Shown here: positions 3,930 through 42,700 of the stretch, piece after piece
How the letters are laid out: each line of letters begins with the position of its first letter
Numbering within the stretch: the first letter of the stretch is position 1
Assembly (NCBI RefSeq): GCF_905475395.1
Contig: NC_058337.1
Coordinates: 97,272,368-97,336,367 of the forward strand
Reading direction: 5' to 3'
Source of the DNA: Chrysoperla carnea
Lineage: Eukaryota; Arthropoda; Insecta; Neuroptera; Chrysopidae
Length of the DNA stretch: 64,000 bases
Translations under genes and position numbers: made by a program
Notes under the pieces: model-generated
Database searches by the model: none
The model's input: the letters and a program-made list of their open reading frames with translations, nothing else
Told to the model about the DNA's origin: nothing

Positions 3930-4680
3930 AGAAGATAATTTTTCTAGAGAGCATTTTCATCGCAAATTGAGTAATTAAAAAGTTATGCACAAAAGAAGAA
4001 ACAAATTAGTGGAATGTTAACAGTACATCTAACAAAAAAATTATAGAGAGTTTTTTGTTTAACATTGAAAGATTACTAGAGCGATTTTTTGACGTAAAAT
4101 GGATAATTAAGAAGTTATTTAATAACAAGTGTAATAAATAATTGTATATTATGTTTATCTGTCATATACTCACACGACACAAACACGTGCGCGCAGTGCG
4201 TCATACCCACAAGTTAATAATACCTTGCTAACTCAAAAATTAACATCACTAGAACTTTGCGGATTTTAATAGCTTCTTTTGCCGTTAGACACGGATTAGT
4301 GTGATGCGTGCGTTGGTTTGAGACTTCTAATAACTGCCATTGGTCTTTAAGGCTCACGATGTTCGTCGCTGTAATCAGTGTCTGACAGCAAATTAAAAAG
4401 CTATTAAAATTTACATAACCCAGTTAACATACCGATTTTCAGCCCTCTAGCACAATTGGGAGACTCAAGTTCAAAGTCATAAAAACATTGAAAAAGGTGC
4501 TTTTTTCCTTGATGAATAAACAAGGAATTATTGATTCGTCGATCTGAGAAGCTCATGCATAATTATACGAAATTTAAACAAAAAACCTCTTCATACAGTT
4601 TTTTGGGTGAATCTTTACAGAGATATAGGTACATAAATTTTTAATTACTCTATATACAATGAAAATGCTCTCTAAATAAA
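3930..4680. mobile_element. divergent foldback repeat
   Basis: The outer arms match in inverted orientation: a block with agagagcattttcatcgc near 3950 followed by gagtaattaaaaagttatg, against the reverse complement of about 4632-4676. A second inner inverted pair lies at about 4266-4300 and 4380-4412 (ttaatagct...gacac.gatta). This looks like an old palindromic non-autonomous DNA transposon, possibly two nested. The boundaries are approximate. Confidence 0.45.
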
Positions 4681-5581: not shown

Positions 5582-7257
5582 TTACCATTTAAGATCACCA
5601 CACCGTCTAAATCGATGACAACTCTCAGGACACTTATAAGTATTCTTACTAACACATACTTGACCATTAAATAATGTATCAGTTGGACATTTTAAATCTG
5701 TTCGACGCCCGTCTATACAAAAATAATATGAAGTACAATTTGAGTCTAAATCTAAAAAGAATCCTTCTTTATTGCATGTTTCTTTTGGTAACGTTTTCGT
5801 GCAATTATTATAAACACAACCATTTATACCATCAAAAACTTGATTATGTGGGCAAACAAATTCACGATATACTTTACCATTTTGACATTGTACGTATTTC
5901 TGGCATTTTGTGTTATCTTGTACATGAAAACCATTAATTTCCTTTTCACATACATTTAAGTACATTTCATCAGTAGGACAATTGTATAAGCTTTTATGTA
6001 TACATTTTTCACCATCAAAAGATTCGGTTGGCGGACATGCATAGTATGTAACTTGTCCCCTTGAACAATAATAATAGTTTGTACATTGAGAACTCGGTGA
6101 TGTATCAGTAAAATAACCCTCTTTTATCAAACATCCAATCCATTCTTTTGGACCTTCACAAAAGTACCATCCTCTGTCAACACAGGTAAAACCATTCCAA
6201 ATTTGATCTCCAGGGCAGGTTCCTTTCATGATAAGCTCATTATTGACACAATAAAAATATTCGTTACATTTTATATGATTTCGATGATAACCATCTTTTA
6301 AATTTAAACAAACTTTCATGTCATGTTCGAGAAGTAATGGACATTTATATGATTTTTCATCCACACATTTAATTCCATCATGCAGAGAATTCTCAGGGCA
6401 TGATTGCCTCCAAATTACTTTATTTTCCAAACAATAAAAATAATCTTGACATCCTGAATGTAAATCAGTGTAAATACCGTCTTCTAAATTCGAACATCCT
6501 TGATCCTTGCACTGATAATATTCTTGAAATACACATTCTTTCCCGTTGAATATGAAATCGTTTCCACAAGTTAAAGTTCCTAAATTAACATGAGATTTAC
6601 AAATAAAATATTCTTTGCAGTCAGAATTAGGCACAGTATAAACACCATCGTCCAAACGGGCACATATATTGCCACGTTGTTGAATTGGAAATGCAACAGC
6701 TGTTTCTTGTGGTAATTGGCATATATCATTAGATCGTTTTACGCATCGTCTTTGAGTTTCGGAAAATATTTCATCAAATTTACAATGTTCGATTGAAACA
6801 ATTTTTCCACCCGTACAATTGAAATTTCGAATACAACCTTGAGTTGTATCTGGATAATTACCATTTACTCTGCCAGTACATACTGGATCATAACATAATC
6901 CCTTTTTAACGCATGTCTGAAGTTCATAACTAAAAGACATATTTTCTGGACATATGTAATCTTTACGTTCTCCGTTTTTGAAACATTGATAGTACATTTT
7001 ACATTTGGTGTCAGGAATAGTGTAATAATTATTGATGGCAAATAAGGGGCATTTTATATCAATACATGATGTTTCGAATGCAGGAACACATATTTGTTTC
7101 AATGAACTAAATGCATAATCATTTTGGCAGGTCTGATTTTGAATTAATTTCTCATTTATGCAATAATAATAGTTTTGACAATTACTTTCTATTGTTGTGT
7201 GAAATCCGTCAATTTTATTCGTACATGGATCTTCAGAGTTTACAGATGAACACAATT
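5582..7257 (-). CDS. multi-domain chitin-binding (peritrophin-A/CBM14) protein, last exon, 5' incomplete
   Basis: This large terminal exon encodes about 557 residues with nine consecutive peritrophin-A (CBM14) domains. Each has the six-cysteine pattern with a central aromatic stretch such as CQDYFYC, CNEYFYC or CTNYYYC, and most end in an F/W-N-G-x-x-C-V turn. Domains begin near residues 11, 69, 126, 198, 254, 310, 363, 415 and 470. Such proteins bind chitin in the peritrophic matrix or cuticle, outside the cell. The exon opens at a good acceptor (ttttttttgcag, then AATTGTG), and its first two bases complete a split codon. The true start, with the expected signal peptide, must therefore lie in an upstream exon I could not identify; the TTG at 7255 is not the start. 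The protein ends ...RCGDLKW. No mucin linkers separate the domains. The domain call is sure; the exact role is not. Confidence 0.88.
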
Positions 7258-8397
7258 CTGCAAAAAAAATTTATTTTGAAATATAAACTGTATCAGCTGT
7301 TATCTCCTGGAAAAATCGCACATAAGTCTATCTTTTTTCTTGTTCAATTATCGTTTTAAAAAATTTCCAAAATTTACGGGAAAGTTCTGGAACTTTCAGA
7401 GCACTAACATGCGAAATTTAGTTTCCCAAAACTATAAGAAGTAGAAAGTTCTGATTTGGTTGAAGGGTTCAAATTATTCCTCAATAGTGTATAGTGAAGA
7501 GACTGAAAGAGGGAAGTTAATTTATAAATATATTTTCGAATCTAAATGATTTGAAAAAAATTTTTATAAATGTAGCTTTTGGTTAAAAATTCGAAACCGT
7601 GAATTCCAAAATTAAGAACATACAAAAAAGTGGTACAAGTTTCTGTGGAATCATTTGCAGTGATTTTTATGTCTTTTACAAGAATCGACAGTAAAAAATT
7701 AAGATTTCCATTTGAAATTGACCATCATAGGGCCCTTCCACCTCATTTTAAGGTCACACAAATATCATTTTTGACCCTTGAAACGTTTATTTGATACAAT
7801 TTTTAATACATGTTTCTCTGTAAAACTCTTGGGGAAGGAAGCCAAGTCTTAGACATTCTCATTACTTCTGTGACATCCTCATGATATATATATTAAGAAA
7901 TCATGTTCTTCAACCAGATATTATTTAAATAAATTTTATGATATTTTAATTTGTTACCTTACCTACCGGATCTAAAATGAAATAAATATTTATTGTAATT
8001 TTATTCCGTCGTGTTTATTTCTTAATAATTCTAAATCTGTTTAATATACTCAGTTTACCCAAGTATTAAGCAATTTTTATTGTAATGTACAAAAGGTAGG
8101 TACGTAAATTATAATTTTGGATAAATTATAATATATCAAATATTATTTTAGATAAAAAGAGGTCAAGAATTATAATTTCAAATGTTAACCTTTAATGAAG
8201 AGATAAAATAAAAATGATTCAGCTTATTTACTCATGGCAGAGATTTTATTCGAACTGAAAATAGGTTAAAACCGTCTTATTTGAATTTTTGTTTTATATA
8301 AATACGTATTTCGACTATCATGAAGTCTCATCATCACTATGAATTAGGTAATGATATTTGAAAAAGTTCATTTTTCCCTAAATTACTTTTGGTAAAA

Positions 8398-17058: not shown

Positions 17059-20000
17059 ATGGGACACTCAAGATCGCGTAGTAAATCACCTAGAAAAAGT
17101 CATAAAAGTAAACATTCGCGAAAACGGAGTAAATCAAGAGATAGATCAGATCGATCACATTCACATAGTAGAAGGTCGAAATCTATAGGTGATAAAAATA
17201 AAGAACGGAGTATCAAATCAAGGTAAGATATTCGTGCTAATTAAAGTCATAATTTCATGGTTATTCATCAATAGATTACATTGGCAAACTGTAAACAAAA
17301 ACTACTTACTGGTTTCATTTGCTTAAGGTTGAAGTTTAACTACGAATATGGGTGGGCACCCCCGGATGTGAATTAAGGATAGATTCTTGTATACGTATAA
17401 ATTGAGGATTTTATGCAATACTTACCGACCAATTTGCCGAATTTGAAACATTTTGTTAGCACATTACATTTGCTGCTAAGGAGTACATTTTGCCAAATTT
17501 TTATTCTAGCTATAATATTTATTGCAGTATTTACTACATGCATACGTCGTTTTGGAACTAAATAAAAAATCACGAACAAGGACGTTTTTGCATACACTTA
17601 CAATTAATTAATAAAAGTTGTAAAGTAGCTTACATTAGAAAAAACACGAAATGTTTTTTTTTTAAACGCCGATAAGTTTTGCTGATTTTTTTATTTTTTT
17701 TTTAACACAATCTCTTCATGGCAAAAAATCTTCGATGAAGCTAATTTCTGAAACATAAAATTTCGAAGATGAATTTTGACGATTGGGCAATCATTTTGGG
17801 AGAAGATTTTTCATAAGAATTTCGACGTACTGAATCCAAATTCAAAATTGCGCCATGATATCACGTTTTCGAGATATTCAATATTAAATGGAGAAAAAAA
17901 CTTTTTTTTTTATAAGTACCATTCATTCCTCTTCAAGCGCCCAATGAATTTTTCGTATATATTCAAAATCGTTTATATAGGAAAGTTTTGAAGTTTCCCA
18001 ATACCTTTTTTTGTCTAAGAAATTGAATAATATAATATGTATTTGTTATTTATTAGATTTCTTGGTAAAATAAAGAGGCGTTGGAAAAAGGCAAAATGGC
18101 TTTCGAAAGAAGAATCACTGTAGGTTGCCGTAAAATAATTGAGGTCGATTTTATCGTACTTTATATTCTAAATTATGTAGGCTTTAAACGTTTTCGACGA
18201 TTATTAAGGAATCTTTTCTTATAAACTTATAAATATACAGTAAAATTTTTGGTTCCTGATTTTTTGATTTTTCTAGAAAACGATCTCATTCAATATCATC
18301 GACTAGTAGCACAGATGGATCAACAGAAACGCCTAGAAGACATAAAAAGTCTAGGTCACATCGAAAAATGGACGAGGTTGAACGATTAGCAGAAATGGAA
18401 CGTCAACGAAGACAACGTGAGGCTGAACAACGATTAGTCGAGGAAGAAACAGCAAAAAGAATTGAGGAACTTGTTAATAAACGTGTTGAAGAAGAATTAG
18501 AAAAACGTCGTGATGAAATTGAACGAGAAGTTGCAAAGCGTGTCGAAGAAGCGAAAGAAATAATGGAAAAACAAATGATGGCTGAAATGGAACGACGTCG
18601 ACAAAAGCAACTAGAAGAAGAAAAGAAACGTGAGGTAAGAACAATGCAGAGACGTTTTGGAGAATTTTAATGACTTATGGTGTTCATAAACATATATAAT
18701 CGACGATCTATTTTTGTCATTTATATTGTTCGTATTTTTGTGTAAAAAAAATTTCTTTTCTATATATTTTTCTAGTCTCTTTAGTTTTTTTTGAAAAATT
18801 TTTTTTTATATTTTTAACTTAGTGACTTCCAGAAAATGAATGACTAAAGTGTTATATTTTTCGATTTTAACTAAAAATAAATGTATTTAAAATTGAATTT
18901 ATTTTAATAATAAATGTTATTTATTTGTAAATTTTGTCGATATACATATAAAAAGAAACACCCATTTGAAAGTGGTTGCAATCATTATTACTATTCGGGT
19001 TGTAATTTTTTGTTATTCAAACTATTAAAATTTTTTATTTATTTGATTTAAAGATGTTATCAAACCAATTTGAAAATTGAATTATATGTATTAGTTTATC
19101 ATGAAAATTACAGAAATCTTAAAATCTAGATTAATTTTCATCTAAGTGCTGTAATAATTCATTGTTCTGGTTTCGTTTATTCGATAAGTATGCATACTCA
19201 AATTAAAGAATCTCAAAAAAAGGAAAGTAACTTTACTTTCGCGACTAAATCTAAGTTCTTTAGGCATATGCATTCCTAAATCGAAACCTGGTTCCGCGGG
19301 CATGTACACAGAATTTTTTTGGGAATTATTAAAATCTTTAGGATTATTTCCCACTCGATTGCCAAGTTTACACCTATTACATTTGGTAGTTACTACATAA
19401 TCAAAATGGCGGCTTAAGAATTTCTATTGTTTTTGGCACACCCATTTTCACCAAAAAGCAAATTTCTCTCACTTTGCAGGCGAAATATTCATTTTTGATC
19501 AATAGATCACTAGATCCAATTTGCAGAAAATAAGAAAAGCCAACTTCTTTTTGTATATAACGAACGATATAATATCTGACCAAGCTAGTGTGTTCAAAGA
19601 TCTGAAAACAAAATTATATTTTCATTCTTTTAGAGATTACTTTAAAATAATTAATTTAGTCCAAAGGTTTAAATTGTAAAATTAAAGAAAAGCAAGTAAA
19701 AATGAATATTTGACTGGATTAACTGTTGAAATACCTTATAAAGACAATTTTGAAAGTCAGTGGTTGTTTGATGTCAAATAATTAATATATAAAATGACGG
19801 CCTTCTGATCTTTAATGTATGTCAGCCACATCATAATAGCTTTATTTAATGTATAACTTAAGCCACCATTTTGATTACGTCAAAATCTTACGCGGAAATC
19901 TTACCAGGTATCAATTTGACATTCGAGTGTAAAGACCTCTTTAGAGTATCTTTTAGTCATTTCCGAAAAATAATTTTTTATACGTTAACATGCCCACAGA

Positions 20001-25081: not shown

Positions 25082-28000
25082 TTATCTTGGAATAAAACAA
25101 GATTGATTTTTTTCATACAAACCTACAGTCAAAATTGTAATTATATTCGTCAAAGTTTTTGGTGAAAGAAGTGATTTATTTGTTAACAGCTTATTTTCAT
25201 CATTTAAATAATCAGGTGGCTTTATCGAACTCACATTTGATAATAATCTTCCTTTTGTCAATGATTCAATTGTGTTTTGTATATCTTCAATTGTATTTTC
25301 AATATCTTGCTCATTAATAATAGGTGCAAATTGTGTATTGTTTTGTGATTTATCTTCAATAGAACGTTTTAAACGTTCACGATTTAACAACTTCATTAAA
25401 TAAGTTAATATCGATCGCATATGTACAATTTTTCTCGTTATTTCAATTTGATCATCGATTGATGTAATGGGGTCACCACTATTGTTCGGTAAATGTATAG
25501 AACTCATTGTAATTAATTCTTGTTTTTCCATTGCGTTTGGTAAAGATTCAAATGTAAAATTATTTTTGTAGAATGCTGAATTTTTCCTATTTGTATTATC
25601 TGTTAACGTTAATGAATCATTACTGTCAGTTTTCTGAATAATTGAAGAAGTACGTGTTTTAATTGCTTCGTCAATTAAAGTATAATATTTTACTGGTAAC
25701 GGTGTACCATAAACATATAAATCATCCGGGGATTTTATTTCATTTTCTTTCTCTTCTTCTTCTTTATATATTAATTCAAATTTGCATTTGCTATTTGCAT
25801 CATTTTTACCTAACACAACTAAAGTAGAAGACAAAATTTGTAAATTAATTAAATATTTCGAATACATTAACAAGTTGAATTTAGATACTATCATTACCGT
25901 TCAGAACATTATCAATCACTTCTGGGCACATTCTAGCGGTAACTGATGTGGATGGACTCATCGCTGGGTGAGAATTAACTTCTATTAGCCACGGTTGAAA
26001 ATCCGATGTTATCATAAAGTCAGCACCATATAATTCAAAAGAATACTCTCTTTTTTCCATGTCATCTTTCGCTGATAATATAACAGCCATAATCGCTTGT
26101 TTCATTTTAGGGTAAATTATATTTTTCCAAGCTTCTGGGTGACCTGCAAATATTCAACATGAATGAACCTTCATCATATTTTTTTACTATATTCATTAGA
26201 ATCACAATTTCCTGATCGCTTTGGATATCGATTTTGTATATTTGATAGTAGACTAATATTTCTAAAGCCCCTGTTAGCATAAATAATTAAAATATGTAGA
26301 CGTTAAGACGTTAGACGTGGAATAATTACGACCTTATTTTTTCAACACATTGTCAAGGAATTCAATGTCTTCCTGTCAGTGGCAGATTTAAGGGGTGACA
26401 AGTGAGTAGTTGCCCACTGGGCCCTCGAAGTAGAGCACAAAGTGCATTTACGAACACTAAAAAAAAATGGGGAAAAAGACAAATTTGTAGGATAGGACAT
26501 CACCAAGTGGTCACCAAATTGACTAACGAAGACTAAAAAAACGGCCCTATTTACAGATTTTGCACACTGACACATTTTCCTTAAATCCGCCACTGTCCTG
26601 TTATAAATTATATCTTTCAACCTCCTATATTTTAATAAATCATACATTTGTTACAATAGATTCTGCCTGCGCACATATTAAAATTTAAAAAAAAATTGCA
26701 GGCCGGGTCATTGAAACTAATAATTTAAGATTTTTATACATACCAATTGATTTCAAATATGTATCAAATTTAATAGAGTCCCACATATTGTCCCGTGGTA
26801 AATTTTTATCACGCCCAGTGTTATTTTTGTAACGACATTGTACTGAATTATTCGTTAAATGTATGGATTCGTGACATTTTGTCAAGTCATATTGCTGTGA
26901 ACTGAATCTTAAATAACATTCTCTAAAAATTAAAAATGATTACAAAATGTTATGACCAAATAAATTCCCTCACAAGTCTTATGAAAAATGAAACTCAATC
27001 GAATTGACTAAAATAGTCTTTTTGAGATTTGGAAAAACGAAGACAGTGATGCTTGTTCATATTACTCAATTTGTTCTTGTATTTCTTAAAAAGTATCCAA
27101 AACAGATGGTTCAGATTCATGGCTTCAAAGAAATTTTTTTTATCGGGAGGAATATTTAGATAATTTTGGCATATTTGACTGGAAGCAGGTATATTCTATA
27201 AAAATATAAACTAATTTTTACAATTTAGGCACTATAAAAAAAAAAATAAAAGCATAGATTGGAAACAAAATTCCAAGCCTCAAGTTATAATGATACTATT
27301 TTTCATTCTTTTGGAATGCTAAACGATAAGTTGTAGAGTGGTAGAAAGCTTTGCCTCCACCACGGCTATATTAACTCACTAAAGAAGTAGCAGATTATAG
27401 AGATGGATTATTTAAAATAAATGATTAATTACTCATAAATCCACACAGTCAATGGAGTTGTTGATGAAATTAAAAACCATTGTCGAATGTCAAACTTGGT
27501 ATTATAAATAATTAGCGGATTTTCTATATACTTTTGAACCAAATAACGCAAATGTGAATTTTTATTAACCAATTCTTTAATTTGACTCAATTTTCGGCAC
27601 ACATGAATTCCTTGACCACGTGAATGTTGATCCGGTTTTAATATCCATACATTATAATTTCCTTCAAAATTTATTTCCGGACGATGAACACGAATGCGTG
27701 CTAATACTTCTGTAGCTTGCGTAATCATATCCGCAACATCATCAACTTCTGCACTATAAAAATTTTCATCTTTATATACGCATTGGTAGTAATGATCAAT
27801 GAAATTATTCCAAGTTTGGGCAGAATACGATATTCGAAATTCACAATCTTTGCAATGTTTAATATATCCAATGCATTGTAAGATGGCAAAGAAAAATGCA
27901 TCAATTGGTACTTTACCATCTCTTGTAACAATTGCTTTATTTAATTTCGATCGACTTACTGTCCATTTAAGTAATGCCATACATGCCGTAATACGGAAAT

Positions 28001-29315
28001 CATATATAAAATCATTCATTTCATTATCGGAAAAGATGTATGTACGTGGAAAATAAACATCGGCAAAACCAGGTCGATAATTCCATTTTAAATTGCGCAT
28101 ATGGCGACATAAACCAATTTTTGAACAAAAGTCGTATTGGCCACGTTTTCTAAAATGATTCACATATACGGGCTTTTTCATACTTTTTATTAAATTGTAC
28201 ATAGGTGGTTTTGGATCCCAAATTAAATCGCAAGGATTATTCCCTAATAGTTTTGATTTTAACATTCTATTATATAAATATCCATGGTTTGGATCATCAA
28301 TTAAATTGAACAATTGTATCAAAGTTTTTTTTTCTGCATTGATTACAATTTCTTGTGAGTTTTTACTAGTTATTATTTTTTCGACCCAACCACGATTCGT
28401 TAAAAATCGTCTTGGTATTCCATAGCTACATATCATAAATGTTTTTCGCTGGCGTATAGCAATTTCAACTGATTCTTTTATTTTTGAAAATCGTATTAAA
28501 CTTGCTCCTTGTAGATTTATTGATACTTCAACTGGAATGGAAATTATTGATTTTTTACTATCTTTTCCACTCACAGTTTTTAGTGATGTATTTCGTTCGT
28601 TTTTGATTGGTGATAAAGATTTGGTCGATTTAGAAGACTTTAAACTGTTTGGGTTACTACCCAGTAAATTAGTCTTAATGGTCGTTGAAAGATTACAGGA
28701 TGTATACGATTGAGTTGTAAATGGTGCTCCATTACATGCATTTGTTGAATTCATTGCTTCAGTAATAGCACTATAAATTGGTTTTAATTGATCATGTTGA
28801 ACTGCATTAAATTTTGGGATAGTATTTTCTATGCATTTTTCATTAATTTGTAACTGATCACCCTCTTTTGACTGCAATTTCCTTTCAATTTTATTTTTTA
28901 TTTCTTTTTTCGATTTTTTTGGATTTTTTACTATTTTGCTCTCTGTTAATGGAATTATGTTTATTTTTGAATGTTCAGTGTTATTATTTTGTATAATCAA
29001 AGAGTTTTTTCTTGCTATTTCATTTTTGGAATTAATAATACTGCGGCATGAATTTAAAAATTCTTGATTTATTAATAATAGTTTTAATTGTTTGTGCATT
29101 AATGATCTTGCTTCTTTCTTCAGTTCCTCTTTCGACAAAGTCTTTTTCTTTTCTTCTTTGAATTGAATCAGATATTGAACACAGTTTTCTTGTGCAGTTT
29201 TTAGCAATGAAGTTATTAATTGTTGTAGTTGCTTTTTGATATTATCGTCTTGTTTATCGTATTCACACTTGCCTAGAATTTCTGTAAACAGTTTAATATT
29301 ATCTGTTTTCGACAT
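25082..29315 (-). CDS. tubulin glycylase, TTLL3-like, tandem copy A
   Basis: Four exons join in frame: 29315-27433, 26922-26744, 26143-25898 and 25818-25082, giving 1014 aa. The enzyme should ligate glycine to glutamate side chains of tubulin tails using ATP, in axonemes. The first ~260 residues are a divergent, helix-rich, lysine-rich extension. At about 280-315 comes the TTLL3 block (IRQRKTFMICSYGIPRRF...NRGWVEKI). The ATP-grasp part follows: NVWILKPDQHSRGQGIHV, then QKYIENPLIIYNTKFDIRQW, ECYLRFSSQQY, HESIHLTNN and FELYGADFM, with the catalytic/metal E-x-N in PWLIEVNSHP (E about 742). After the TTLL fold comes VVLGKNDANSKCKFELIYK, aligning with the start of the TTLL3 C-terminal region, then a variable 240-aa tail. 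Unlike B and C, it has no intron after QKY(V/I) but has an extra one inside SIG-HPEAW. ATG 29315 is the first in-frame Met of the exon; upstream exons are not excluded. Confidence 0.9.
26377..26595. mobile_element. hAT-like MITE inside TTLL3-A intron
   Basis: The terminal inverted repeats are CAGTGGCAGATTTAAGG on the left and, in reverse complement, CAGTGGCGGATTTAAGG on the right. Both sides are flanked by TCCTGT (26371-26376 and 26596-26601), a 6-bp duplication. CAGTGGCGGATTTA-type ends are usual for non-autonomous hAT elements, which make 8-bp duplications, so the 6-bp match is slightly short. It lies wholly in the intron unique to copy A. Confidence 0.65.
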
Positions 29316-29387
29316 TTTTCAAAACCAGTTATTTAAATTACATGAAGGAACACATATTCTTGCATTAAAATTTTATTTTGCTGTTTT

Positions 29388-29776
29388 TTATAATGAATTT
29401 TCAAAACATATTTTTAAAACTTCATATACTTTATCAATCTGTCCATTTTCTGCTGACGATATATTAGTTAATGTTCTACCAATTTTCGTTCGGATAATTT
29501 TACGTATAACACGATTTATTATGCACGGAGTTGCATTTTTACAACGTTCTATATCAGATAGAATAATTTGCATAAAACGTGTAATACATTTATCTTGTGC
29601 TAATTTCCAAATTTGTATTAACTCATATAGAATTTTATTTTGCGTTTCTGGATCTGATTCAAAAAATGAACATAATTCCAATAAAGCTTGTAGTAATAAG
29701 TATTCATCTGGCATTAGTTTTTGTTTACGAGAATTTGGAATGATTCTTTTGCCTAATTTTATGTCAGATGAAATAC
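29388..29776 (-). CDS. unassigned exon-like reading frame between TTLL3-A and TTLL3-B
   Basis: An open frame of about 129 residues begins right after a good acceptor (ctaatttatttag, then GTATTTC) at 29776 and ends at a TAA at 29388. The longest Met-initiated part is 108 aa (from 29714). It is helical in character. The stretch KILYELIQIWKLAQDKCITR resembles the N-terminal part of TTLL3-A (QLQQLITSLLKTAQENCVQY). Its phase (needing one base from an upstream exon) fits the G-ending third exon of TTLL3-B, so it could be an alternative last exon of B. It could also be an orphaned 5' exon of a glycylase copy, or a duplicated N-terminal module of A. No Met-led first exon is visible. Confidence 0.4.
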
Positions 29777-29910
29777 CTAAATAAATTAGTTGTACAGTTT
29801 TATATCATTTGATTGTTTTTAGTGTTTTGATATAATTTCTATGACAATTTTTCTAAAAATTCATTTGCGTCCTCAAACAAAAATTTTCAATGGCTCAATT
29901 TATTCGGAAT

Positions 29911-30727
29911 GCTTAGAAAAAATCGGGAAAAAATTTTTGTTTCCGATTTCGATCAAACTCTGTATATAAGTTAATTTTGACCCACAAAATACAAAAATTG
30001 GGTTTATGTATCGATTAGATGTATGGTTTCTGAGAAAATCGCTCTTTTTGTCCAATTTTTAGTTATATCTCAAAAGCCAAGCATCCAGTCATCAAATAAA
30101 CCTTATTTTTGAATTTTTTGGATCAAAATTATCTTATATAATAAATTTTATCAATATCGAAGGCAAAAATATTTTTTCGATTTTTTGCAATTTTCTTAAG
30201 GGAAAACCCCTTAGAAAAAATCGGGAAAAAATTTTTGTTTCCGATTTCGACCAAACTCTGTATATAAGTTAATTTTGACCCACAAAATACAAAAATTGGG
30301 TTTATGTATCGATTAGATGTATGTTTTCTGAGAAAATCGCTCCTTATGTCCAATTTTTAGTTATATCTCAAAAGCCAAGCATCCAATCATTAAATAAACC
30401 TTATTTTTGAATTTTTTGGTTCAAAATTATCTTATATAATAAATTTTATCAATATCGAAGGCAAAAATATTTTTTCGATTTTTTACAATTTTCTTTTGTA
30501 CCCCTTAGAAAAAATCGGGAAAAAATTTTTGTTTTCGATTTCGATCAAACTCTGTACATAAGTTAATTTTGACCCAAAAAATACAAAAATCGGGTTTATG
30601 TATCGATTAGATGTATGGTTTCTGAGAAAATCGCTCTCTGTGTCCAATTTTTTATTATATATCAAAAACTTGGATGCGATCATTAAATAAACCCGATTTT
30701 TTAATTTTTCCATTCAAAATTATCTTA
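29911..30727. repeat. tandem array of about 296-bp units
   Basis: Nearly three units start at about 29912, 30210 and 30504 (spacing 298 and 294 bp). Each opens cttagaaaaaatcgggaaaa and continues through cgattagatgtatg, tgagaaaatcgctc and atatctcaaaag; the third is shorter. Units look about 90-95 percent alike by eye. The array sits between glycylase genes A and B. Confidence 0.8.
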
Positions 30728-30730
30728 TAT

Positions 30731-30782
30731 TCCGTGGGACTCATCTTGTCAACCGTTAGAGATAGAACAAAATGTTAAAAAT
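30731..30782 (+). repeat. fragment of interspersed repeat family 1
   Basis: The short piece ccgtgggactcatcttgtca then accgttagagatagaacaaa matches the middle of family 1. It abuts the tandem array. Confidence 0.5.
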
Positions 30783-31016
30783 TATCCTAGGTGGGTGTCG
30801 TCGTTTATATCTGGGGTAGTATTATTCGTTTACAAAATATCATTGATGTGTCTGATCCATAAGATATTTAATCGGCCAGTTCTTGGACTATATTGAAAAG
30901 TGTCAAATTTCAAGTAAACAAATTCTAGGTTTTTTTGTGTAATTTAAATAGGTCAATAATATGTTCAATGATTGTGTTAATGAATAAAATATATATTTAG
31001 TTACAATTTTTATTAT

Positions 31017-31022
31017 TTTATT
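31017..31022 (-). terminator. poly(A) signal candidate of TTLL3-B
   Basis: AATAAA on the minus strand, 77 bp beyond the stop codon of glycylase gene B. A second one lies at 31008-31013. Confidence 0.5.
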
Positions 31023-31098
31023 TAGTTGACATATACAATATGCTTGCTAATTTTTTTTAAACTTTTTGAAAATTTTATACAACAAAAATAATGATATC

Positions 31099-34000
31099 TC
31101 AATTAACAATGCCGTCAGGTTTTTGATAAAACAATTTCAGTTTATTTCGTCTAAGAGTAATAACATTTTGTTTTTTGATATTTTGATTTAACGTATGACC
31201 ATCAAAATTCACTTTTGTAATTGGAATTTCTTTATATAATTTTGGTGCATCAACTTGCTGATTGTTTTTTAATTGTAAAATATTTTTTAAGACACAATTC
31301 GCTCTACTTGTTGTCTTAGCAGTCTTTTTACTATCAATTGTTGGCTTAGGATGTTCGTTGACAATTTGAGAAGATGGCTCACTTTTTAATATATTTTGAT
31401 CGCCAGTACTGTTTGCATCCTGAGAACTCTTTAATTTAGAACTCTTTGATATTCGCTTTGTTTTATTTGTATTTTTCGCATGTAAATCCATTTTAGGGTT
31501 ACACAAATGTAATGGTAATTTCGACACATTAACTAAACTACGCTTGTTAATTATACTACGTATATTCTTTTTTGATGTGGGAAATGGTGATGGTAAATTC
31601 ATAGTTTCATTCTTAAAAATTAATTGCAATTGATTATTTTTCATGTCACTGTATATGTGTTGGGTCATTTCCATTACAGTTCTTGGTTCCAAGCCGTTAC
31701 TATCATTTTTTATTTTAAAAGTTTCTTGTGAACACATTAAATGTGCGGCTGTAATTTGATTTTTCAACAAACCGATCTGAAACGATGGTATTGGCTGCAA
31801 TTCAATCTTTCGTGATGGATCCTTATTTGTTAATTTTTTGACAACATTTGGTTCATAAATAAAATGTGCTGTTTTTTTTATGCGCCGTAAATGTGTGGCG
31901 TATTTTCCTTTAGTTGTTTTATTATTTACAACGTCTATTGATTTTATTGGTTTTAAACAGAGTCTATTTGTTGTAAAGTCTTCTAAACCTGGCAATATCA
32001 TTATGCCAGAATCAGTGAAAACATCGTTTGCTATCATATGTTTCTCAATTTGTATTCCTTTCCCGTCAATACGCAAATCAATTTGATCAGATGAATCTAT
32101 GTTATGAACTAATGATTCACTAAACACACATGCAAAATTTCCAGTAGATGCTGCTGGATTTTTTCGGGTATCAATGATTACTGTAAAATAATAAAGATAA
32201 TTACTTTAAAATTCGATCAAGTTCAAGTCGGAATCACGCAGAGAAGATTCTATCAACCTATTATTTATGAACCATGTTCCTGACTTCGAAATGATCATGC
32301 AATGTCTTATGCAGACCAACTTCAAAATTTCAATAAATGCTGAGTCCTTTGAGAAAAATTTGTTTATACAAGCTTGCAGAATATAAATACCTTTAATTAA
32401 ATCCTCCATGCATTTTGGCACTAAATTGGCAGTAACCTCTGTTGAATATGACATATCTGGATAAGAGTTAATTTCAATTAACCACGGTGAACATAATTTA
32501 TCCAATATAAAATCAGCACCATATAAGTGAAATGAATTTTCACGACGTTTTATATTTGATTCAATTGATAATATACATCCAATAATGCATTTAGACATTT
32601 TTGTCAGTATATTTTCGCAACATATACTGGAATATCCATTATCTTGTAAATATTCCTGAAATTTATCACTAGTCCACATATTGTTCTCTGGTAAATCAGT
32701 ATGAAAATAACAATTTTTATATTTCTTTTGTACAGAATAGTTTGTTAAATGTATGGACTCATGATAGTTAGATAAATTAAATGGTCGTGATGAAAAACGT
32801 AAATAATATTCCCTGAAATAAAATGTAAGTATTAATAAAAATTGTTGTTAGTACGGGTGATAGTCAACGATTACTGGCATCACTTTGCATTTCAATATAA
32901 ATATATAAAATACAAAACATGATTTTAAAGTGAAACTTGGCTAAGTTGTACCCCCATATAAACCGTTTCACTTTAAGATATTACTTTTACTTATCTATAA
33001 GTATTTTTGAAATGTTAACTATGACTTTTCTGGGTTCACAAAGGACTAAACGAGATCTCCAAGACTAAACTTGCGTATACTTTTAGGATTTTATATCGAT
33101 AATGTTTACCAAATAACTTTACTGTAATTTAAAATGCAAAGTGATATCGCTCATCGACTGCACTACTATAAAAATATAAACAAAATATTTCAAAAGAAAG
33201 TTAGCTTTATCGTTCGCGAATTAACGCTTAAAGGAAGGTGTTAATTACTTGAAGCAAAAAATAATATTTGATAAAAATTCAACATTATTAGACGGATTTT
33301 TTAACTTTGCTTTGATTGGTATCAAAAAGAAGAAATTTGCACACCCGTCAGATTTATTTCTTTCTTTTGGCTTCCCCTCCCTGTACCTTATCCGATATTT
33401 TATCGTCTATCATTTTGGTCTAATTTAGAAAACAAATTAACACACAATAATAAGGAAATACAAAAAAAAAAAATACATTCCATGATTGTTTGCTAAAAAC
33501 TTTATAAGTTTTAAAAGCATATAAATCGATCAAATTGATGTCCAGTTATGTTATCATTAATTTATGAATAACTGATGTTTATTAACCCCAACGTAATAAG
33601 GGCGTGTTATTAGATCGCTGCGTGTGTGTGTCTATGGCATCGTAGCTCCTAAACGGATGAACCGATTTTTGGTTTATTTGAAAGGTAATTAAATGGAGAG
33701 TGTTTTTAGTTATATTTCAAGAAAAGCGGGTCTATTTAGAGAGAGCTAGCTATAAGGAAAAAACTACATTTGTCGGGGATTTTTTTAATTTTGTAATTTT
33801 CAGTTAATTTATTCTTAAATTTTTCTTTAGTTATGTACTCTTAAATTGCATCCAAAATGTCGAACGATTAGACTTATGCTGTTAAAATAATTAGAGCTAA
33901 TCAAATTTTCTTTATCATCTCAAAGATTAGCTTTTTATAAACACCCCAAGATACTTTCCAATGGCGATAGACAGTCTGAATAGACCATTTCTAACTTTCT

Positions 34001-35910
34001 TGTCCTCCAAACTGGGGAAAAATGAAACTTGTTAGGATAGTTATGGCATGCTGAGATTGAAATGATAAAGAAATTATGATACATAAGGTGATTATTAATT
34101 TATTTACTTATACACCCATATTTCAAATGGCTTTGACTTTATAATAAACCAAATACGTATATCAAACTTGGTATTGTAAATGAGCAGAGGTTGTTCTAAA
34201 ACAAGAAAAATCAAATAAAAAAGAGCCACTCGTCTACATACTATATCAAACAAATTCATTAAACGCATCGCCCGACAAGTTTGATGAATTTGGCATAAGT
34301 CATCAAAACTAGTACGCTATATCAAATAAATTCTATAAATTGGTCACCAACTGAACCTCTTTGGTTTAAAAAAAAACGCAGTCGCCCATTCTGTAAATTT
34401 AGCACCCGTTGTAAATTTTTTCTTTGGTTAGAAAAATATAAGTAATGTATAGGAGTGCCAAATTTACAGGTTGACCACAAATTGAAAAAGTTCGCTAGGA
34501 ATGTTAATAGTCATTTAGAAATGTAGACCATTTATAGAACACATAATAAGGAAAACGGTTCAAGAAATTACTCCCGAGATATTAAGGAGTGATTTAAAAA
34601 TTTTGTAAAATAAAAATTTCGTGTGTGAAACGCGAAGGTGGATACGTTGAGACAAAAGGAACTGAAGATAACTGTTGTTACTTACGTCAACAATAGTAAT
34701 TGTATTTGTAAATGCAATGTGTGAAAAATTAATATTCCCTTTATTTTGTTTGATGTAAGAAATCTTTGGGAAACTTCAAAAACTTACCAACATATTTTTG
34801 AATGACCCATCGTGTACGTTGGTCTGGTTTTGTCACTAATCTATGTATATCTTTATAACTGGATAACACATGAATGTTATTGCCTCGCGAACCATATGCT
34901 GGTTTAACTAGCCACATATTAAGCATTCCATCTAAATGATATTGCGGCCAATATTTTTCCACAATATTTAATAAATCACGAATAATATTCAATAAACTAG
35001 ATATACTAAGTTTGAAGTGCTTATCAAATAATTTTCCACGATGAACAAATTGAAAACATTTCTCCAAAAACGAATCACAATTATCAAGATCCGTTAATGA
35101 ATTTGAATCATCAATTTTGTCAATATCTTCATGCTTTTTAAACTCTAAATATTCCATTAAATATTTAATCGCTGTTTCAATTACTTCCATGTCTAACGTT
35201 CCATTTTCGTCAAATATGCTACTCATGGAATGTTGTTCAATACGATATTGAAACGTTTTTAATAAGCTCATAGATGCTGTTAAACGAAAATTGTCCTTGA
35301 ATTCAACAAACTGCTCGGAGTAACATGATGCATAACTACGTGGATACTGTATATCAATCATTGGACTATTCCCTTTCGATAATTCAGACAAGTGTTGTGA
35401 GATGAATTCTTTATTTGTGAATGAAGAACCCACACGATTCACTATTGTACTTTCTGGCAGCATATTATTTTTAGTGAATGGAAGACAATTCCAACAAAAA
35501 CGTGGCACAACATTTGTTAATAAACTTGATAATATATCTGCTTGAACTCGTTCATAATATTCTTGATCGGTACGATCTTCAAAATGAAACTCAGCAAATA
35601 TAGTATCAAGTTTTGAAGTTAACGATGTGTACGAAATAACATTTGAAACATTCTTTTTATCATTTGCTGGACGTTTTTCTAGCCATCCTCGAAGTAATAA
35701 TGATCGGCGGATTGTGTTGCATGATCCACTCGCCATAAAAACTTTTCCACGTATTAATGCATTTTCAATTCGTTTCTTTAAATCATTCATACGTGGTGGA
35801 ATACGTTTCCCTTGAGTTACTATCGTTTGTCCGCCAGTGAGTTTGTTGATTGTTGTTATGTCCAATAAATTACTATAAAGTATATTTTCTGGATAAGATG
35901 TGGATACCAT
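31099..35910 (-). CDS. tubulin glycylase, TTLL3-like, tandem copy B
   Basis: Four exons join in frame: 35910-34788, 34195-34108, 32812-32391 and 32180-31099, giving 904 aa. Role as for copy A: ATP-dependent glycylation of tubulin tails. The TTLL3 block is at about residues 45-75 (KKRIENALIRGKVFMASGS, then RRSLLLRGWLEK). The ATP-grasp part has NMWLVKPAYGSRGNNIHVL, QKYVEQPLLIYNTKFDIRIW, EYYLRFSSRPF, HESIHLTNYSVQ, HLYGADFIL and PWLIEINSYP (E about 517). The last exon opens VIIDTRKNPAASTGNFAC, aligning with the other copies, and then runs as a long basic, low-conservation tail. B is the most divergent of the three in the core: in the nucleotide loop RGNN replaces RGQG, and TANLVPKC replaces TARMCP. 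It could have changed specificity. I see no frame break. Codons and splice phases match its neighbours. Confidence 0.9.
32850..33170. mobile_element. foldback MITE in TTLL3-B intron 2
   Basis: The outer arms share atcactttgcattt plus a diverged flank (gtcaacgatta on the left against gtcgatgagcgat on the right in reverse complement). Inner arms also pair around aagtgaaact and tttcacttta. About 320 bp, ends approximate, no coding frame. Confidence 0.45.
33601..33765 (+). repeat. interspersed repeat fragment in TTLL3-B intron 2
   Basis: It opens ggcgtgttattagatcgctg and contains tctatggcatcgtagctcct followed by aaacggatgaaccgattttt. This is a widespread insect repeat type, as far as I recall often linked to non-LTR retroelements. 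Single copy in this window. Confidence 0.4.
34478..34680 (+). repeat. fragment of foldback family 3 in TTLL3-B intron 1
   Basis: It matches one arm of the element at 49249-49743: ggaatgttaat, acggttcaagaaattactcc, cgagatatta and gtggatacgttgaga occur in the same order. Confidence 0.55.
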
Positions 35911-37293
35911 GTTTTTACGTTTTTTTAAAGTAATATCCCTGTTTCTGCCAATGTATTTTATTCAATCATTTCGTTGTTGCACTGATTACAGACATTTTTA
36001 CGTAAAATTTTGTTCTTTTTAATAAAAGATGTGTTGTCAAATGCTATTTCGTACACTTTGCTATTTTTTTGTTTGTTTTGAATCGTTAACATGGTTATGA
36101 TTTATTTTAATAAAATGAAGTGACATAAACCTCATTAGACCTTTTTCACATTTTTCCTCTTTTTTTTTAAATGAAAGTAAATGTCTTGATAAATGGGCTA
36201 ATTTTTTCCCCCGATTTTTTTGAAGCCATATGACCGAGAAAAACAGACAATGAAAATCTTTAAAATTCAAATTGGCGAAAACGATCCGGAAACACACGAT
36301 GTTACACGAAGGTTGATTTGACGTCATTTAAAGTTGATAATAGTGATATATTAATACAACTGTTGACACTGTTTTATTGTTATTGCTTGTCGGATTGACA
36401 TCACAGATTACGTGTGCGATGGAGCCAAAAAAAATCGTTTTAAAATATTTCAAATATTGTAAATACTTTTTAACAATTTTTTTCATAGTGTTTTTATTGT
36501 TAAAAATGCGTAATTTTTGAGTTACAGGCTCTACTCGACCTATATATATTTTCATACAAAATTATCAAAAAGCATTTCTGTTTTTCATGAAAAAGGTCTT
36601 TTGGAAGAAATTTATAATTTCAAGATATCGAGCCAGTGCTAAATAAGATCCTCATTCAAGTATAAAGGTAGTAGAAGTATAATTTTATATTTTGTAGATG
36701 ATTCACGAACTATGCAATTCTTAGCAAGTTTAAAATCAGAAATTTGTGTTTTCTAGTGCGCTGTAACTTTTTTTGATAATCCGGCACATGAATATTTCAA
36801 GTTCTGGTAGTTTTTGTTGAAATTTGAATTAGATCAAAAGTTTTAGTTCATTTTCCCTTAACTTCGATTCCATACCGTGTAAATAAGTATAATTTTTTTA
36901 ACTCTGACCACATTAGTAAGATAACAGCTCCATGCCATGTTAAAATTTTTTACACAAATCGCTCTTCTAGGTGTTTTTGTAGCTAGTTATTTTAATAAAG
37001 ACCCATAGATTTACAAATACATATTTCATTGGTGATTGAGGTGCATAGTTTTATTTTTACTTTCACCTTTGAGGCGGACTCAAGCTAACACACTGCATCA
37101 AAGAGAATAGACCAAAAGAGCTCAAAATTTTAAAATCAATTATTACACTGAATTAGCTTAATAAGTGACTGTAGTAGAGATGCGATGAATTTTGTATGTA
37201 GTTTTTTTTGGCCTGTTGTAGCTAAATTTAAATAAAATGTGCTTTGAATACACTAAATACCGTTAGCCACACTTAACATGCGCTGTTATGTGT
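35911..37293. other. intergenic spacer between TTLL3-B and TTLL3-C
   Basis: AT-rich DNA of about 1.4 kb that should include the promoter of gene B (near 35911) and the 3' end of gene C. No coding frame or recognisable repeat stands out, and I could not assign a promoter motif. Confidence 0.5.
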
Positions 37294-37299
37294 TTTATT
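37294..37299 (-). terminator. poly(A) signal candidate of TTLL3-C
   Basis: AATAAA on the minus strand, 65 bp beyond the stop codon of glycylase gene C. Confidence 0.5.
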
Positions 37300-37363
37300 T
37301 TCAAATTTGTATGTACAATACATTAATGCAATATACAAATGAAACAATGAATGATTTTACTGA

Positions 37364-40300
37364 TTAAGCTTTGACTTTTGAGTTCGGTCGTGTAGCTGCA
37401 GTTCCACTTACTCTTAAAGGGTTAATCACTCCTTTAGAATCAAAGTCTAATCCAACAGTTAAGAAATTATTCAAAAGACTTTTTGATAAATGTGTATGAT
37501 CATACATTGATCGTATTAATCTTGGGCATGTTGGCTTTTTAACTGTTTTCACTAAATCGTCTGTCGTTTTCGTATTGATTTCTAGATCTTTTTTAGTTAA
37601 AATTGATTTGGTGGTTGAATTATGGCCTCCGTTTATACTTTTTGATGACATATAACGATTAATTTTAATTGATTTTTTACTATCCGTTGCTTCAGAACAA
37701 TTCAATTTCTGCACATTGGACGTCTCCTGTGGTTTGGATGACATGGATCTTTTTAGGATGTTTTTTCTTGAGCTGTTAAATGAGAAAGGGTATTGGATGA
37801 ATGATTTTGATTTCATTGTTATTGTATTAATGGTAGGTTGAATATGGTGTACCGTTCGATTTTTTCGCACACAACTCAACATTTTCTTTCGACGATGAAT
37901 TGGTATTTTCTCTGAATCACATGCTTTTAGCATAGTTTTTGATTCTTCTTTCAGTTCTTCAATGAAATCGCCAATAATTGGACCTTGGTAATCCTGAACG
38001 CTTGGTGAAATTGATAGTTTTTCAAAGTTCTCATGAATTATGTTCACATTTTCTATGGGTCTTGAATTTTTAAATATTTTCTGGCGTGACATACGTTTAC
38101 CACGAATTGTAAGTTGCAGACCAAGATATGTTGGTGGTCGTGGACATTGTTGTTTATAAGCCAATTCGAATAATCCAGTATCTGCAGTTGGATCTTCTTT
38201 TCGATCAATTACAACTAAAAGACAACACAAACACAAAGAAGTTCTGTTAAACAAGTAATTAAATTATAGGAATAAATTATTATACCATGAGCACAAACAA
38301 AATAAAATGTGTTCATCGATGGAGTTAACAAGAGAACCAAGTTAATTTTTTTTTTTAAATTTTTCTCATCTATTTAAAATTAGAATAACTTTCTACAGTT
38401 AAATAATTTGATTTGATTTTTTAGTTGATTTCGATTTTTATCAAAAAAGATGGGATTTTCACCAACTGATACGAAATAAAGTCAAATTAACAGACAAGTT
38501 TGAACAATTTCATTGAAAATGAACTTTTCTGTTAATTTGACTTTATTTTGAGTCGATTGGAGAAAATCCCATCTTACTAGCATGTATAGAACAGAAAATC
38601 GTTATTTTTGGGTGGTTTTCGCACGCTTTCTTAACAATTAACAATCGAGCACTTAAAATGCAACTAGACCAAAAATTTTTGCGGGATATTGTTGAGTTAT
38701 ACTACAAATAAAAATTTTATACATATTCAAAATCTGATTTTTTCATACTTTTCTGAGGGGTAAAATTGTAAAAATCGCGTTTTTTCTAATTTTACGAACA
38801 TTTTTTGTTAATTTTGACACCAATTATATATAATACCCACCGACAATCTGCACTTTTACATTCAGGAGCATTTCTTAAACGAGATCCTGCAAAAATTTTC
38901 TATACGAAAATTATTCATGGATATTTTACCAGGTCTATTTGAACAAGTAGAACTTATTGGCTATGGTTATAAAAAAATCAAATTTATTTAGAGTACTTTT
39001 ATTTGTGTTCAGAGCATCAAAATAAAGCGTCCCACCAAAATGATGGTAATGGTTATAATTTTTTAGAAGTAAAACTATAAATTTGAAAATTCGAATTCTT
39101 TCAAGGTTCGAAATTCATGAAGCGATTCACTTGAAAATTGTATTAGCTATCAGGCTCAATGCTATAGTTAAGATACATTGAATTCAAAAAAGACGTACCT
39201 TTAACAACATCTTCCAGACATTGTGGACACATTCTTGCTGTAACTGAAGTTGAACTACTCATATCAGGACTAGAATTAATTTCAAGCAACCATGGCACTA
39301 AATCTTGCCCTAAAATAAAATCTGCACCATATAATTCAAAATAATTACCCTTGCGGTCCATATTATCTTGACTGGCCAACATTGCACCAACGATAGCTTC
39401 TTTCATAGCGGGATAAATAAAATTATCCCATTTTTCATACTGACCAATTTTTCTTAAGTACGCTTTGAATGTATAACAATCCCACATATTTTCATCGGGT
39501 AATTCTTTACTTCTTTGTTGATTATTTTGATTTTTATATCTTTTTTGAATCGCATTATTGGTTAAATGAATTGCTTCGTGAAAGTCGTTTAAAGAAAATA
39601 ATTGTGAGCTAAAGCGTAAATAACATTCTCTGAAACAAAAAATTTGATCATAAAATTTAAAATTCATAATTTAGGTATAAAACATCAAGATTGAAATTGC
39701 AGTTTAAAAACCCATTCTCACACTTAGATGGGAAAATCTTGCTTCTAACCTGGTCGTGTTGAAGTCAAAATAATCCACTTCCGTCAGAAACTTAAAGAGG
39801 CTACTTTTATTGACTATTTTTATAAAAAAATTCGCAAATCTCTTATTAACAAATTAATTAATTACTTAATTTGTTTAAACAGATTATATCATCTCATCAG
39901 TTTATAGCTGATGATAGCCAGAGAAACTTTCTTTATAATAATTCTGTAGGGATGGGGTTTTTAATTGCAATTGTACCATATATTTTCTTACGTGTACATC
40001 CACACAATTAATGGTTGGCCAGATGTTAGTAAAAACCATTGCCGTATGTCGAATTTTGTATCGTAAATGAGAAAAGGTCTTTCTAAAAATCATTAAAAAC
40101 TATTAAAATATTGTAAATTATTCCACACAATGTTTCTATTCTACATTTTCATTTATAAAACCCCTGGAAACGAAACTTGAAAAAACATTCGTTGAAAATT
40201 ATTAAATGTGGTTGGTATGAAATTATAGATTGCAGATATACATGGTGTTCATTTCAAAAATGTCCACTCTTGATAACTCTTGAGATGATGTGATTATTGT

Positions 40301-42700
40301 TTTGAGTGATAACACGTCGATTTAGATATCGACGGGTAAGTTAAAAAATGGTAGGTATAGAAAATTTTAGTGTTCATCTCTTCACCCCACCCACCCCAAC
40401 TTTGAAATTTAAAATGGTACCCTCTACCTTGTGATACCTCATTTGAAAGGGCATACAATTCTCTCTTCACCCATGATTAAAAAAATGAAATCAATTAATT
40501 GGTTCTTAAGATAGACAACTCAAAAGATGGAATTCATACCTCCAATCTTCTGTGTAGTCTATCTTAGAAACTAATGAGAATTGTATGTTCACAAGGCAGA
40601 TGGGTATCATTTGAAATTTCAAAGTTGAGGTGGCTAGTGGTTAAGAGGTGAAACCTAAAATTCTCTAGATAGGTACCATTTATGAACTTCACCCTCGATA
40701 TAGAAATCGACGACTTATTTCCACTCACAACAATAATCACATCAGGTTAAAAGTTATTAATGGTGAATACTTTTGAAATGAACACACTGTATACAGATCA
40801 ACATCTCGAGGCCACTATACCAACAAAACAACATTCTATATTTTATAGTTTCGTAGAAAATCTCTGGAAACTAAATTGAGCAATTTTGTTCCCTGAGGTT
40901 TTCAGTGCTTTTCTCCGAAATTGTAAGATATAGGTAGAAGGATATAATTTGATAAATAGATTGGTTTATTATATTCTTATTATCATACTAATCTGATCTG
41001 ATAATATTAAGAGGATGTGAAGGGGGTCAATGTTTTGTGAGAAATCGAATTTCGCTCTCTTTATATTATTAAATGGGTTTGGTATGCAAATCGGTTACTA
41101 TAGGCGGACAACTCATAGCTATATTTCAATTTTTAACCAGAGTTTTTTAACCAAAAAAATCCGAAGGCCCATGCTAGCTCGTTCCCATTACAGATATGAC
41201 CAAACAGTGTAACGCCTGCGTATTATAACCATAGAGTTCACTTAAGGCCAAAAAACTCACAGGCCCATGCTAAAGTGAACCTATTACAGGTATGGCCAAC
41301 TCATGTAATATCTGGGTATTTTAATTATAGCATTTTAGCAATATACAGGTAAAATTTTTTAAATAAAATTTAGGAAAACATGAAAACCAGCTGTATTTTA
41401 TTTTTGTTTTTCAATTATTTTAAAATTTCAACTCACCAACATATTTTTGAACTACATATCTGTGTTTTTTTGGATTGCAATTTAAAACTAATCCTAAAAT
41501 ACTTTGATATTTATCCATTATTATGATGCCTTGCCCTCGACATCTATTTCCAGGTTTAACTATCCAAACATTTCGCATCCCGTCTAAATTATATTGTGGC
41601 CAATATTGTATCATTTTTTTTAAAGCGTATGTAATTCGTTCCTTTAGCTCGTCGATACTTTCATCGCCAGTTCTATGTAAAAATCGCTTCTTTTGATTAA
41701 CAAATGCATCAAAAGACGCAAAAAAGTTTTCCCATTCATGATCCCAGACTTTACGATAATCAATATCTAAATCTTTATGTTCGGCTGTTGAAATGTACTC
41801 CAAACAACGATCAATTGCAAAATGTACTACGGATATCGGAAGACTACCCGCAATAGATCGTACTGCAATTTCACCATCATGGGTCACCGCAGCTAGAAAA
41901 TTTTTTAAAAGGCTCATACATGCTGTTAATCGGAAATCATCAATAAATGATACTAATTGGTCCGAATACGATAGATTATAGCATCTTGGAAAATTAATCA
42001 CAGCAACACCCGGCTCAGTAAACCAATGCATTTGTTGAAGAATTGCGCATAAGCCTTCTTTACTGGTAAAACGTACTTTTGGAAAACGATTTATCAATGC
42101 ATCACGAGGTATTGCATTTAACCAGGCTAATGATTCTTTTCGGATATTCCAATATAAATTTGCTGGATGCGATTGTAATAATCGTGCTTTTATAGCCATT
42201 TCACACTTTTTTAAATGTTGATCTAAGGATTCACCAGCTTGTTGGGTGGGTAAATTTTGAAATAAAGCATCATTCTCATTTCGACTGCTATCATCCAATT
42301 GAGTTGAGTCATTCGCTAATCTTGTTGGTGATTTTACTTGGATCTTCTCAATCCATCCACGTTTTAATAATGCACGTTTTACTGAGCGAAAATGTCCACA
42401 TAAATAAAATATTTTACGTTGTCGAATTGCCTCATCAACTTCTTTTTTTATGGCTGCAATACGTTCACTTGTTAAATAATTCCTATTCACTGATTGTTTA
42501 ATTTGTAATTTTGTATTTTCATTGCTATTTTCTTCTTTTTCATTGGAGGGTAAACTTGTTGTTTCACAAAATTTTGCAAATGGGAAAGCTTCTTGTAAAA
42601 TTAATTCGTCAGTAATTTTTTTGGTTTTTAGTCTTAATAATTTTAATTTGACATTATTATTTGTTGAAAAGTGTAATAATTCTCCCGTATTTTCCATCAT
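37364..42700 (-). CDS. tubulin glycylase, TTLL3-like, tandem copy C
   Basis: Four exons join in frame: 42700-41437, 40082-39992, 39629-39199 and 38214-37364, giving 878 aa. This copy is closest to the textbook TTLL3. The TTLL3 block is at about residues 85-120 (KKEVDEAIRQRKIFYLCGHF, RALLKRGWIEKI), then FTEPGVAVINFPRCYNLS and FIDDFRLTACMSLLK. The ATP-grasp part has YWPQYNLDGMRNVWIVKPGN then RCRGQGIIIM, QKYVERPFLIYDTKFDIRQW, ECYLRFSSQLF, HEAIHLTNNAIQKRY, FELYGADFIL and PWLLEINSSPDMS (E about 568). The last exon opens VVIDRKEDPTADTGLFELAY and carries the conserved ...GKRMSRQK stretch, then a basic tail ending RPNSKVKA. It should add glycine to tubulin tails in sperm or sensory cilia. Position and conservation suggest it may represent the ancestral member of the array. 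ATG 42700 follows in-frame upstream sequence lacking conserved residues. Confidence 0.92.
38447..38576. repeat. 130-bp inverted repeat in TTLL3-C intron 3
   Basis: The arm aagatgggattttcaccaac... plus ataaagtcaaattaacag is mirrored at 38528-38576 in reverse complement, with a short A/T-rich loop. A likely MITE or foldback remnant. Confidence 0.6.
40237..40794. mobile_element. foldback MITE family 2, copy 2 (near complete), in TTLL3-C intron 1
   Basis: The ends are tatacatggtgttcatttca and, in reverse complement, tatacagtgtgttcatttca. The inverted repeats then run inward through aataactctt-type and gatgtgattattgtt blocks, and again around ccacccaccccaactttgaa. About 558 bp, no coding frame. 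TATA-like flanks suggest a TA or TATA duplication, but the repeat ends make that ambiguous. Confidence 0.7.
41119..41330 (+). repeat. two-unit direct repeat in TTLL3-C intron 1
   Basis: Units near 41140-41236 and 41237-41330 share ggcccatgcta, a ttacagatatgacca-type block, and a ...tgtaa...ctg.gtatt.taa.tatag ending, about 97 bp apart. Confidence 0.5.

Follow-up and report, generated by a model that had tools for sequence, protein, structure and literature searches.

TTLL3-type glycylases are ATP-grasp ligases that attach glycine to tubulin-tail glutamates, at the gamma-carboxyl group. Their main sites of action are the axonemes of cilia and sperm tails, and tubulin glycylation is important for both. 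Aphid studies reportedly name a "tubulin glycylase 3A-like" enzyme. The subject of the present analysis is a cluster of three genes, designated A, B, and C, found in a 64,000-nucleotide stretch of the genome of the lacewing Chrysoperla carnea (RefSeq assembly GCF_905475395.1, contig NC_058337.1, positions 97,272,368 to 97,336,367 of the forward strand; hereafter, the window). Drosophila has two TTLL3 glycylases, TTLL3A and TTLL3B, and an earlier note on the lacewing DNA stated that both of them initiate and extend glycine chains, which is also how PMC3925317 describes them. Both enzymes are reported to act in testis (PMC5701211), and TTLL3B is described as required for male fertility (PMC8132408). 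A further family member, TTLL10, is described as a polyglycylase that extends chains from existing glycines only (PMC12340829).

Judged from their sequences, the lacewing genes very probably (at a rough probability of 0.85) encode TTLL3-type tubulin glycylases that are DNA-level duplicates, all predicted to initiate glycine chains, and apparently make up the full TTLL3-type complement of this genome.

Family identity, active site, and genome-wide set

All three proteins belong to the TTL family. The Pfam profile TTL (PF03133) matched A, B, and C with E-values of 6.7e-78, 6.9e-66, and 1.7e-73 and with scores of 262.3, 222.9, and 247.8 bits, respectively, against a curated cut-off of 20.1. Among 23 matched PDB sequences, 5vlq, the presumed vertebrate enzyme, ranked first for all three genes (385.6 bits for A, 240.9 for B, and 319.6 for C), and the runner-up chain, a TTL, scored 79.1, 106.7, and 94.9 bits. 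The ATP-grasp cores shared 53% (A), 44% (B), and 49% (C) identity with 5vlq and 25%–35% with TTL, TTLL6, and TTLL7, gene A being the most conserved of the three towards 5vlq. The N-terminal block aligned separately within residues 14–227 of 5vlq, with 78.4 bits for A, 48.3 for C, and 30.0 for B, the weakest of these matches. The TTLL3-type identity proposed in the earlier note is well supported by the first rank of 5vlq, its wide margin, and the greater distance to TTL, TTLL6, and TTLL7, and the N-terminal block, ATP-grasp region, and E-x-N motif that it had listed were all found in each gene.

In the core alignment, A, B, and C all retain the lysine of KP, as well as QKY, KFDIR, LRFSS, HLTN, YGAD, and E-x-N, which we take to have catalytic roles. 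Genes A and C have all of the aligned ATP-grasp motifs, with the nucleotide loop RGQGI, while in B the loop is RGNNI and the remaining aligned motifs are present. The residue corresponding to Q180 of TTLL6, which is reported to be the main factor deciding between elongation and initiation in that enzyme (PMC12366701, PMC7970040), is arginine in A, B, C, and 5vlq, glutamine in TTLL6, methionine in TTLL7, and lysine in TTL. Since arginine occupies this position in all three lacewing proteins, all three are predicted, by analogy, to initiate glycine chains.

A search of the genome with the TTL profile identified at least 27 pieces, nine of them in the cluster and the other 18 spread over six places elsewhere. 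At all six, the best-scoring of the seven query cores was that of TTLL6 or TTLL7. The core of A used as a genome query gave at least 17 matches, 10 inside the window and seven outside; the latter all started at query residue 285 or beyond, and none spanned the TTLL3 N-terminal block. Because the other places scored best with glutamylase cores and no outside match covered this block, the genome appears to have no TTLL3-type genes besides A, B, and C, and no further copy or fragment of this type was found in either search, the counts of both being lower bounds. A tblastn search of the window with the three proteins likewise revealed no extra copy or fragment, and pattern scans of genomic and viral contigs, in which 39, 19, 146, and 81 stretches matched, revealed no encoded relative. 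The TTL profile matched none of 14 control genomes, a result of little weight.

From their translations, we take the six other places to represent TTLL1, TTLL2, TTLL4, TTLL5, TTLL6, and a membrane-anchored type; of these names, TTLL6 alone has sequence support (85% identity over one 34-residue piece). In our own reading of the translations, no TTLL10 was recognized among them. One TTL-family piece (L025, C2:82499000-82508000, positions 3726–4478) contains a probable membrane segment close to its start and the sequence KFDIGV, compared to KFD-x-R in the aligned cores, and is perhaps atypical or inactive.

Judging from the family, each of the three enzymes would couple glycine to glutamates of axonemal tubulin tails in an ATP-dependent reaction. 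With arginine at the initiation position, all three would start chains, and they could also elongate them, as in Drosophila, because no TTLL10 was recognized among the other TTL genes. We infer both catalytic activity and expression for A, B, and C.

Several points weigh against the reading of the trio as the complete set of initiating TTLL3-type glycylases. In gene B, the nucleotide loop has lost its second glycine (the fourth loop place), which is kept in all six other aligned cores. The 5vlq chain, which we take to be Xenopus TTLL3, is labeled in the search as LOC100158544 protein, and the TTLL3-type assignment was made by comparison with TTL, TTLL6, and TTLL7 only. The Q180 rule was derived from glutamylases and is carried over here to glycylases. 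The genome counts of TTL pieces are lower bounds, and at one locus (L024, contig C4), the glutamylase core was ahead of the 5vlq core by only 2.7 bits.

Gene structure and duplication history

The three genes follow one another on the minus strand between positions 42700 and 25082, with intergenic gaps of 1,453 and 1,783 bases (Table 1). All nine introns have GT-AG borders, and each joined frame ends in its only stop codon. At the stop fraction of 0.0716 determined for 9,980 non-coding triplets of the same stretch, the chance of a full open frame is 4.5e-29 for A, 6.5e-30 for B, and 1.8e-33 for C, and even the longest single exon would stay open with a chance of only 2.6e-14, 8.4e-13, and 5.7e-21, respectively. 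The earlier note had described three intact same-strand genes of 1,014, 904, and 878 residues, and identical lengths were obtained here upon splicing. Open frames together with the retained motifs rule out that A and C are pseudogenes and make this unlikely for B. The Chrysoperla carnea assembly is described as already annotated in RefSeq (PMC10116181), and the three loci are probably already named there.

The introns of A and B are located at corresponding residues and have the same phases (1, 2, and 1), and for this pair the matching exon plans described in the earlier note are exact. Gene C departs from this plan: it shares the last two introns, but the first one is absent, exons 1 and 2 being fused, and an extra phase-1 intron is present inside the third block. 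The shared intron positions show that the trio arose via duplication of intron-containing genomic DNA, and retrocopying is thus ruled out.

The copies are nevertheless strongly diverged. Pairwise identity over the aligned 550–570 residues is 36% for A and B, 39% for A and C, and 32% for B and C, and the cores are 47%–56% identical among the copies, about as low as the 44%–53% found in comparison to 5vlq. In a tree of seven sequences (222 columns, 190 bootstrap replicates), A joined 5vlq with a bootstrap support of 75 and B was placed next to the outgroup with a support of 89, so that A, B, and C were not grouped apart from 5vlq; the same topology was obtained with FastTree. The approximately unbiased (AU) test of three A+B+C groupings gave p values of 0.032, 0.0496, and 0.117, two of them below 0.05.

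The local, lineage-specific expansion of glycylases suggested in the earlier note is not demonstrated by these results: the copies are about as far from each other as from 5vlq, and the tree leaves them ungrouped, although not all groupings are rejected. The cluster could instead be an old TTLL3 array that predates the lacewing lineage, an explanation that we consider quite possible, although somewhat short of an even chance. The core identities, the positions of A and B in both trees, and the two AU values below 0.05 argue for it. However, the third grouping was not rejected in the AU test, the Kishino-Hasegawa and Shimodaira-Hasegawa tests rejected none of the three, and the tree, with its few sequences and long branches, is too small for dating the duplications. 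Moreover, the fast evolution of B combined with a remote outgroup could be behind its placement. Whatever their age, A, B, and C look like three tandem members of a known enzyme family, that is, ordinary long-separated copies.

Divergence of the copies and neighboring features

Gene B evolves fastest of the three. In 476 gap-free columns, it has 82 unique changes versus 43 in A (p = 0.0006) and 72 versus 45 in C (p = 0.016); between A and C there is no difference (50 versus 62, p = 0.30). Of the columns common to the other two copies and 5vlq, B retains 99 of 137, whereas A and C retain 99 of 115 and 99 of 117, respectively. Taken with the RGNNI loop, these values are what would be expected if A and C were active glycylases and B a regulatory or degenerating pseudoenzyme, which binds tubulin or partners and turns over ATP poorly. 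We regard this as unlikely, because the 904 codons of B are free of stops despite the minute chance of this given above, its splice sites are intact, the other aligned catalytic motifs are retained, and activity may survive the loss of a single loop glycine. Gene B may be active, altered, or a pseudoenzyme, and within the preferred reading it is counted as a TTLL3-type glycylase like its neighbors.

The tails following the cores have no similarity to each other (lowest E-value of 0.20 in blastp comparisons between copies), in agreement with the strong divergence of tails claimed earlier. They also differ in charge: A (48 Lys and Arg, 21 Asp and Glu) and B (56 and 29) have basic tails, and C has a slightly acidic one (27 and 32). 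The regions ahead of the core comprise 77 residues in A, 38 in B, and 273 in C, the last being basic (46 Lys and Arg, 27 Asp and Glu). Our guess is that the tails and the N-terminal region of C set microtubule binding or the choice of partners.

Such unrelated tails would be consistent with a division of labor, in which some copies initiate and others elongate chains, or in which the copies serve different tubules of the axoneme (doublets, accessory, and central ones of a 9+9+2 sperm tail) or sensory cilia. The earlier note had likewise suggested that the diverged tails might give separate substrate sites, chain-length roles, or expression in testis and sensory neurons. In Chrysopa pallens, which belongs to the same lacewing family, the sperm axoneme is described as 9+9+2 (PMC10464168), and polymodified tubulin of the Drosophila sperm tail is noted particularly on the accessory and central tubules (PMC3925317). 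On the other hand, the initiation-type arginine is common to all three copies, and each of the Drosophila TTLL3 enzymes is described as performing both steps (PMC3925317), which makes this division rather doubtful. It is still less probable that the entire glycylation set is a single 18-kb array of three specialized enzymes, with B as a non-catalytic partner or one of changed specificity that tunes its neighbors, with the accessory tubules of the 9+9+2 sperm axoneme as one conceivable site.

Several other features were found in the window. A 138-residue open frame just upstream of gene C has no early methionine, and there may be a splice acceptor close to its start. Pfam yielded a weak match, below threshold, to the HRI kinase helical domain (E-value of 0.0012), the PDB hits to designed helical repeats look like chance, and a genome search found no second copy of the frame. 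The tandem repeat between B and C consists of three copies of a 286-base unit; the second and third copies share 97% and 70% identity with the first. The first intron of gene A contains an inverted repeat, perhaps a small transposable element, whose 83-base arms are separated by 391 bases and are 80% complementary. Outside the cluster, Pfam searches revealed a 562-residue open frame in which nine stretches matched the chitin-binding peritrophin-A domain, as well as a probable exon from an ARGLU1-like (arginine and glutamate-rich 1) gene.

Table 1. Positions in the window of the three TTLL3-type genes, their core-encoding exons, and other features
Feature	Position	Strand	Description
Gene A	37364-42700	minus	TTLL3-type, 878 aa (amino acids); exons 42700-41437, 40082-39992, 39629-39199, 38214-37364
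Gene B	31099-35910	minus	TTLL3-type, 904 aa; exons 35910-34788, 34195-34108, 32812-32391, 32180-31099
Gene C	25082-29315	minus	TTLL3-type, 1014 aa; exons 29315-27433, 26922-26744, 26143-25898, 25818-25082
Gene A exon 3	39199-39629	minus	Second half of ATP-grasp core: HLTNN, LYGAD, LEINSSP (translation, alignment)
Gene B exon 3	32391-32812	minus	Second half of ATP-grasp core: HLTNY, LYGAD, IEINSYP (translation, alignment)
Gene C exons 2 and 3 (26922-26744, 26143-25898)	25898-26922	minus	Block equivalent to exon 3 of A and B, split by the extra 600-base intron: HLTNN, LYGAD, IEVNSHP
Open frame upstream of gene C	29388-29804	minus	138 aa
Tandem repeat between B and C	29912-30789		286-base unit
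Inverted repeat in gene A intron 1	40237-40793		83-base arms
Open frame with peritrophin-A domains	5582-7270	minus	562 aa
Likely exon of ARGLU1-like gene	18260-18670	plus	

Comparison with known enzymes

Copy-number variation is expected in such a family, so the cluster comes as no surprise, but it is useful for comparison. An insect whose three diverged TTLL3-type genes lie at one locus would allow initiation, elongation, and axoneme targeting to be told apart through knockdown of single genes. Worth keeping are the apparent whole TTLL3-type set, the strong divergence of its members, and the odd nucleotide loop of the middle gene B.

TTLL6, TTLL7, and TTL have the ATP-grasp core in common with the trio, but their PDB alignments span only the core part of the three proteins, the scores are far lower, and glutamine, methionine, or lysine is present at the initiation position. 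TTLL10 belongs to the same ligase family and uses the same donor amino acid, and it is set apart from the lacewing enzymes by description only. The closest resemblance is to 5vlq, which has the same N-terminal block followed by the TTL ATP-grasp core, the arginine preceding the nucleotide-loop glycine, and the E-x-N motif (Q-x-N in the deposited chain). Unlike 5vlq, the lacewing copies have mutually unrelated tails, C has a long N-terminal region, and B has an altered nucleotide loop. TTLL3A and TTLL3B of Drosophila, compared by description only, are likewise insect TTLL3 glycylases, but they are two genes, whereas the lacewing has three in tandem.

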